64,000 bases of DNA from Lactobacillus paragasseri. Its GTDB lineage: Bacteria > Bacillota > Bacilli > Lactobacillales > Lactobacillaceae. The notes beneath the pieces are model-generated. The model ran no database searches and was not told where the DNA came from. It saw nothing but the letters and a program-made list of their open reading frames with translations. The stretch is from positions 310,001-374,000 of the forward strand of contig NZ_AP018549.1 of assembly GCF_003584685.1 (NCBI RefSeq), in the 5' to 3' direction. Position numbers and translations under genes: made by a program. This document shows positions 43,043 through 46,332 of this stretch, one piece after another; within the stretch, counting starts at the first letter, position 1; the number at the start of each line of letters is the position of its first letter.

Positions 43043-43071
43043 TTGAGCAAAACGACGTAAATTAGTATACG
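43043..43071 (+). promoter_or_regulatory. rplM-rpsI promoter
   Basis: TTGAGC (43043-43048), 17-base spacer, TATACG (43066-43071), just after truA. Confidence 0.6.
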
Positions 43072-43077
43072 TATGTT

Positions 43078-43140
43078 TGTCCACGATAGGCCCCGGAAAC
43101 TTATTGTTTGTCAAACAGAAGAAAAACGGAGGAATTTAAA
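43078..43140 (+). promoter_or_regulatory. rplM leader (L13-leader-like)
   Basis: The untranslated RNA contains GTTTG (43074-43078) able to pair with CAAAC (43112-43116), enclosing the GC-rich segment GGCCCCGG. A conserved L13-binding leader precedes rplM in low-GC Gram-positives; equating this segment with it is inference from position. It ends at CGGAGG before the GTG start. Confidence 0.5.
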
Positions 43141-44628: not shown

Positions 44629-45495
44629 ATGAAATATTTAATTACCGGAGCAACAGGTAACTTAGGTGAAAAGGTTACTCGTTGGCTTAGAACTATGACT
44701 CCCGAAAATAATATTCGAGTTGGAATTCACAATTTAAAAAAAGCGAATAAGTTTGACGACTTAGATGTTGAAAAGATTAAACTAGATTACTTTGATTTAG
44801 ATACACTTGAAAAAGCAGTTTCTGGCGTTGATTTGGTTATTTATATTCCTAGTATTACTTATGATTTGCAGAGAAGAATCACAGAATTTGAAAATGTACT
44901 GCAAGCTGTGAAAAAGGCAAAAGCAAAGTTGATTTTTGTCAGCTTTTTTGCGGACCAAGAAAATAATCCCTTTGTGATGTCACCATTTTATGCTTATGTT
45001 CCAAGGCGACTAGCTAGTTCCAAGGTCGAATATAGTATTGTTAAAAATAGTCTTTATGCTGATCCTTTAGTTCCATATCTTGAAGAATTAATTAAGTGTA
45101 AGAACATTATTTATCCTGTTGGTGCACAACCACTTTCTTTTATTACTCGAAATGATAGTGCACATGCGATTGCATGCCTAGCTATGCAGTCTATAATGCG
45201 TGACCAAGGTCAGTCTTATTTACTAAGTATGGATAAAAACTATAATATGGTTGAATTGTCCTACATCATGTCGCGAATTACTGATCATAAAATTGGTTAT
45301 GCACCAGTCACAATTACTGAATTTGCTAAAATTTATGCCCAAGAAGGCGATGGAAAAGAATTAGCATCAATGTATGCTGGTGGTGCAAAGGGCCTATTAA
45401 GCGAAACATCAGACGATTTTCATCGCTTAACTGGACGTGAACCAGAAGAGATGGAGCATTTTCTGCGAAACGGCTACCAGATAGCTCGTTTATAA
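44629..45495 (+). CDS. NmrA-like NAD(P)-binding oxidoreductase
   Basis: 288 residues. An N-terminal Rossmann motif GATGNLGEKVTRWL (about 7-20) is followed by a basic residue pattern expected for NADP. The layout is that of the atypical short-chain dehydrogenases of the NmrA/QOR2 group (VDLVIYIPSITYDLQRR, SPFYAYVPRRLASSKVEYSIV). Members reduce quinones or sense redox cofactors; the substrate is not predictable. AAGAAAGG lies 16 bases before the ATG, unusually far. Single gene with its own -10. Confidence 0.82.
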   Translation: MKYLITGATGNLGEKVTRWLRTMTPENNIRVGIHNLKKANKFDDLDVEKIKLDYFDLDTLEKAVSGVDLVIYIPSITYDLQRRITEFENVLQAVKKAKAKLIFVSFFADQENNPFVMSPFYAYVPRRLASSKVEYSIVKNSLYADPLVPYLEELIKCKNIIYPVGAQPLSFITRNDSAHAIACLAMQSIMRDQGQSYLLSMDKNYNMVELSYIMSRITDHKIGYAPVTITEFAKIYAQEGDGKELASMYAGGAKGLLSETSDDFHRLTGREPEEMEHFLRNGYQIARL

Positions 45496-45520: not shown

Positions 45521-45549
45521 TTTCAAGTTAAAATAAAAGATGTTATACT
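45521..45549 (+). promoter_or_regulatory. promoter of the orphan RNA candidate
   Basis: TTTCAA (45521-45526), 17-base spacer, TATACT (45544-45549). Good -10, weak -35. It lies 26 bases after the NmrA-like gene. Confidence 0.6.
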
Positions 45550-45555
45550 ATAGAT

Positions 45556-45732
45556 AGTAAGTGCTGAGAGAAAATTAATTGTAATTAAAGTGTAGATGCA
45601 GAGCTGAGTAAGACCGTAGGCATGCTAGTAATACACAGACTTTTAGCTTAGGGATGAGGGTAAAAGTCAACTTCTTATTTTAACTGTTATATACGAAAGA
45701 AGAGATCAGACATTAAAATCTGATCTCTTTTT
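45556..45732 (+). ncRNA. orphan structured RNA candidate
   Basis: About 175 nt between a SigA-like promoter and a strong terminator, with no credible ORF. Visible pairings are GTGTA (45590-45594) with TACAC (45632-45636), enclosing TGC/GCA; GACTTTTA with TAAAAGTC (45638-45668), eight perfect pairs; and the terminator AGAGATCAGA/TCTGATCTCT. The segment GCTGAG occurs twice. Nothing transcribed in the same direction follows before 46608, since the next gene is on the other strand, so it does not look like a riboswitch. I cannot match it to 6S, SRP, tmRNA, RNase P or a known riboswitch. Confidence 0.55.
45700..45732. terminator. terminator of the RNA candidate, usable from both sides
   Basis: AAGAGATCAGA (45700-45710), loop CATTAAAA, TCTGATCTCTT (45719-45729), T's to 45732. 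In reverse it lies just behind the DJ-1 gene and ends in a T-rich stretch, so it can serve that gene too. Confidence 0.88.
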
Positions 45733-45747
45733 CGTGAAGTTTATTAA

Positions 45748-46332
45748 TTAAAGACTAGCATTAATATTCTTAGCCAAGTAGTCGTAAAGCATACCTTTCT
45801 CTAAGTCACTGGTATCATGTCCGAGTGTCCGAGCGATAGTGTAAGCATATGCCCAAGCAGTAGCTGGACCACGACTAGTGATAATTTTATGTTCTTGGTC
45901 AACAACAGTGATGTCAGTGCTAAAGTGACCATTTGGACATTCTTCTTCGATTTGTTTTTCAAAGCCTGGATAACAAGTATAGTTAGCACCTTCAAGTAAA
46001 CCGTAGTGCCCTAAAGCGATTGGAGCTGCACACATTGCGGCATCCCACTTACCTGCTTTATTTCTTTGAATCATCAAGTCTGCAAGCTTTTTATTATTTC
46101 TTAAATTCAAAGCGCCAGTTCTGCCACCAGGGAAGGCAACAAGATCATAATCAAGAAGTGAGTCATCCACAACCTTATCACAGGTAAGTAAGATATGATG
46201 ATCACCATCAATTTCTTTTTTATCTAGACCGACCATGTCGCAGTCAATATTTAAACGACGTAAGACATCAACGACACTTAAGCCTTCAACTTCTTCACAA
46301 CCGTCTGCAAAGACAACAGCTACTTTTGTCAT
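45748..46332 (-). CDS. DJ-1/PfpI family protein
   Basis: 194 residues. The nucleophile elbow AAMCAAPIAL places the reactive cysteine at C101; the acidic partner lies in GCEEVEGLS (about 11-19), and FPGGRTGALNLRNN and SRGPATAWAYAYTIA complete the DJ-1 pattern. Family members act as glyoxalases/deglycases or redox-sensing chaperones; the exact reaction here is uncertain. The start has AAGGAGG at good spacing. It converges on the RNA candidate's terminator. Confidence 0.88.
   Translation of the reverse strand: MTKVAVVFADGCEEVEGLSVVDVLRRLNIDCDMVGLDKKEIDGDHHILLTCDKVVDDSLLDYDLVAFPGGRTGALNLRNNKKLADLMIQRNKAGKWDAAMCAAPIALGHYGLLEGANYTCYPGFEKQIEEECPNGHFSTDITVVDQEHKIITSRGPATAWAYAYTIARTLGHDTSDLEKGMLYDYLAKNINASL

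Follow-up and report, generated by a model that had tools for sequence, protein, structure and literature searches.

What is made from the short piece of DNA that separates two converging genes of Lactobacillus paragasseri? The first gene (44629-45495, + strand) encodes an NmrA-like NAD(P)-binding protein (PF05368, 5.6e-13), the second (45748-46332, − strand) a protein of the DJ-1/PfpI family (PF01965, 1.8e-31), for which NCBIfam gives DJ-1 family glyoxalase III as product, above cut-off. All positions refer to the window, i.e., the whole stretch of 64,000 nucleotides that was analysed. Between the two genes, a promoter, a non-coding stretch of about 175 nt and a terminator are lined up at 45521-45732 on the + strand. 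A preliminary description had seen here an orphan structured RNA, possibly a trans-acting small RNA (sRNA) or a divergent 6S RNA. As shown below, the former idea is supported by a conserved promoter and terminator, purifying selection, covariation and the lack of a conserved open reading frame (ORF); the latter had to be given up. The junction almost certainly holds a small gene making a non-coding RNA of about 175 bases. The kind of element is ordinary: it is an intergenic sRNA gene.

The promoter (45521-45549) has the layout originally assigned to it. A weak -35 element, TTTCAA (45521-45526), is followed by a spacer of 17 nt and by TATACT (45544-45549), which is preceded by TG and thus is an extended -10 element, TGTTATACT. 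From the promoter, the 5' end of the RNA is placed at 45556, and from the terminator (45700-45732) its 3' end at 45732. This terminator consists of the predicted 11-pair stem (45700-45710 with 45719-45729) and a T-run (T5). At the level of sequence, the RNA thus has its own promoter and an intrinsic terminator, as is expected of an intergenic sRNA. The statistics of the single sequence are less telling. A simple promoter scan of the window did not list the site, and neither promoter-like nor terminator-like sites exceed in the window what is found in shuffles. The fold of the single sequence is modestly better than chance (z -2.16; 6 of 200 shuffles equally good). It is the comparative evidence, not such single-sequence statistics, that carries the case for an sRNA gene.

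Among 75 Lactobacillus species genomes, BLAST revealed the full unit, promoter included, in nine, with 82-100% identity; in two more genomes its matches were short and partial. A covariance model, built from these nine homologues with the terminator left out, found exactly one copy in each of the nine genomes and none in the other 66 of the genus; across 251 family genomes it detected no homologue outside Lactobacillus, nor were second copies found within the source genome. The carriers include L. taiwanensis DSM 21401, L. johnsonii ATCC 33200 and two metagenome-assembled genomes (G006 and G033). Weaker signals were discarded: the BLAST matches in G002, G008, G023 and G057 are short and partial, and the loci in G002 and G023 lack the RNA; a model match in L. 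hominis (21.3 bits, E 0.47), which overlaps the end of the DJ-1 gene, was taken as chance. A mobile or phage origin was also considered and dropped, since phage and plasmid records yielded no match; in viral contigs the exact pattern of the 5' segment of the sRNA was not matched either.

The location is as constant as the copy number. In all nine carriers the RNA sits at the junction of the converging NmrA-like and DJ-1/PfpI genes. These leave 240-246 bp between them in the four carriers that have named records. The same gene pair also converges in L. hominis, L. colini, L. rodentium and a related metagenome-assembled genome (locus L042), but at a distance of 64-76 bp, with a bare terminator and without the RNA. 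The other loci that were examined showed no NmrA-like gene close to DJ-1. The simplest reading is that the gasseri/johnsonii lineage acquired here a unit of about 170 bp, which used or replaced the shared terminator.

The extended -10 element, TGTTATA(C/A)T, is retained in eight of the nine homologues. The exception is L. johnsonii ATCC 33200 (locus L035), which has TATTACATT at this position and a new TATAAT slightly downstream of the degraded element; there, because of these changes, the start of the sRNA may have shifted or the transcript may have been lost. The terminator is found in all nine homologues, with 11 of 14 pairs invariant and 99% of the cells of the alignment paired. Being near-palindromic, it probably also ends the DJ-1 gene on the minus strand. 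Read on that strand, the T-run is interrupted in the window (45693-45735, CTTCTTTCG); relatives have TTTTTTCG.

The sequence between promoter and terminator is strongly constrained. Between the gasseri-side genomes (G000, G011, which we take to be L. gasseri ATCC 33323, and G016) and those of the johnsonii and taiwanensis side, the RNA is 82-87% identical, whereas in the same comparison identity at four-fold degenerate sites is only 39-48% for the NmrA-like gene and, for the DJ-1 gene, 45-66%. Because the RNA exceeds these sites by far, we consider it to be under strong purifying selection. Identity is high in the 5' segment (45556-45589): whichever two homologues are compared, it amounts to 94-100% over the first 37 columns of the alignment. 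The unit, in which the preliminary description saw no ORF, has no conserved one: none of 6 codons or more is common to all nine copies, and a small protein was, therefore, rejected as the product. That the RNA might have a dual function or be the mRNA of a very short peptide is very unlikely: a GTG frame of 28-29 codons does exist in the taiwanensis and johnsonii copies, yet it has no ribosome-binding site and is broken in the gasseri-side copies.

The RNAalifold consensus of the homologues comprises six helices, and 97.6% of its cells are paired. The alignment thereby supplied the compensatory changes that had been called for as a check: four pairs have changes on both sides, compared to 2.3 ± 0.8 in shuffles (15 of 500), and nine cells show a double change, compared to 3.1 in shuffles (0 of 500). 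Versions of the consensus that were slid along the alignment had zero or one compensatory pair each against the four of the unslid one, a comparison that favours the latter, as the consensus was derived from the very sequences on which it was tested. The main stem (45638-45668), first noticed as eight perfect pairs between GACTTTTA (45638-45645) and TAAAAGTC (45661-45668), accounts for three of the doubly changed pairs; 96.8% of its cells are paired, and in relatives it reaches 10 or more pairs. In L021 (genome G089), a deletion of 8 bases removes what directly follows the main stem on the 3' side, together with the outermost 3' partners of the stem. The neighbouring hairpin (45590-45636) is closed by the previously described arm of GTGTA (45590-45594) and TACAC (45632-45636), which never varies; one compensatory pair (U-A to C-G) lengthens it. 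Most other consensus pairs are invariant as well. A long-range helix between the 5' and 3' parts is nearly invariant and, in consequence, covariation can neither test nor support it. Like promoter and terminator, these compensatory changes and the lack of a conserved ORF agree with an intergenic sRNA. In the predictions, the most accessible of the invariant stretches are part of the 5' segment, a candidate seed or protein-binding site, and the conserved loop AAGACCGTA of the hairpin (45610-45618). A further sequence element did not hold up as well: GCTGAG is indeed repeated in the window (45563 and 45603), but in relatives the first copy reads GCGTAG, GCTAAG or GCTTAG.

Is this a known RNA? 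In Rfam release 15, no family matches the region at its gathering score. The best weak match, sau-5971 (RF02397), with 21.4 bits against a gathering score of 90 and an E value of 0.16, is not significant; its likeness to the RNA of the window lies mostly in the terminator hairpin. Among the titles and abstracts that literature searches returned, none reports this sRNA. One name proposed earlier was 6S, and an Rfam match was to decide on it. Neither RF00013 nor RF01710 (Lacto-usp) matches the sRNA region. RF00013 has no match anywhere in the source genome, and RF01710 has a single one, with 95.8 bits, at position 1273831 of its contig C1. By reading the ORFs, its neighbours were recognised as rarA-like and uspA-like. 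On account of this position, we take Lacto-usp to be the 6S RNA of this genome. In lactic acid bacteria, 6S RNA is located at the rarA-uspA site (PMC8414754; the name Lacto-usp is absent from its main text). Like the RNA of the window, Lacto-usp stands alone, is structured and has a comparable length, and length and single copy would indeed fit a 6S RNA. The window RNA, however, has NmrA-like and DJ-1 genes as neighbours, matches no 6S covariance model and is absent from other lactobacilli, while 6S is distributed far more widely. As the Lacto-usp of this genome already occupies the rarA-uspA site elsewhere, 6S can be excluded; the chance that the window RNA is a divergent form of it is close to nil. 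On the evidence of sequence, the RNA is real, conserved, lineage-restricted and unlisted in Rfam release 15.

How, then, might it act? It is not an ordinary leader, as had been recognised from the outset, since no gene follows directly downstream on the same strand. (The window does contain a leader, L13_leader, RF00555, with 50.3 bits at 43070-43121, 5' of the L13/S9 ribosomal protein genes.) The stretch could still work mainly in cis, either as 3' UTR of the NmrA-like gene or as a buffer or terminator between convergent genes that shapes the ends of their mRNAs; the promoter would then be incidental. Between the stop codon of the NmrA-like gene and 45700 the analysis found no further terminator, the existing one could serve both directions by virtue of its near-palindromic build, and in the outgroups both genes appear to share one terminator. 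Yet in these outgroups 64-76 bp suffice, and a terminator needs neither the conserved extended -10 nor the conserved 5' segment. A role mainly in cis is, thus, improbable. Binding of a protein, by sequestration or as a scaffold, instead of antisense pairing is conceivable but rather unlikely. It would agree with a long, structured and highly conserved RNA, whose very conserved loop and 5' segment have no detectable target complement; yet a repeated protein-binding motif was not seen, and the GCTGAG repeat is unconserved.

On balance, we favour an independently transcribed intergenic sRNA gene, specific for the L. gasseri/johnsonii/taiwanensis group, which most likely yields a trans-acting regulatory sRNA. 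RNA polymerase would start near 45556 and stop at 45732; hairpins and terminator would stabilise the product; the conserved single-stranded stretches, i.e., the 5' terminal ~34 nt and/or the AAGACCGTA loop, would be presented for pairing with target mRNAs. Any such pairing would be independent of Hfq, since Hfq has no match in the source genome, although the controls were detected. There are points against a trans-acting sRNA: the -35 is weak, a simple scan misses the site, the -10 is degraded or shifted in L. johnsonii ATCC 33200, and the long-range helix of the predicted structure lacks covariation. Also, the complement of the loop, searched as one pattern in six genomes, is no more common than a reversed-pattern control, and for this reason we do not propose a target.

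A precedent for the arrangement exists in the same order, Lactobacillales. The ArgX gene of Lactococcus lactis lies directly behind a protein gene, has its own promoter, and its sRNA lowers the arc mRNA (PMC6586332). The likeness is one of arrangement, and the neighbours differ: that of ArgX is argR, whereas the NmrA-like neighbour of the present sRNA has no known regulatory role. A bolder reading would be a new class of RNA that is restricted to the L. gasseri/johnsonii group, was acquired at its fixed junction once L. hominis-like relatives had split off and acts in an as yet undescribed way, e.g., as a protein-binding regulator; we consider this doubtful.

To our knowledge, few regulatory sRNAs have been characterised in Lactobacillus. 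The one described here shows strong conservation, has no entry in Rfam 15 and occurs as a single copy that could, in principle, be deleted; its outgroups offer clear empty sites. For studies of Hfq-independent regulation in L. gasseri and L. johnsonii, it therefore makes a practical starting point.
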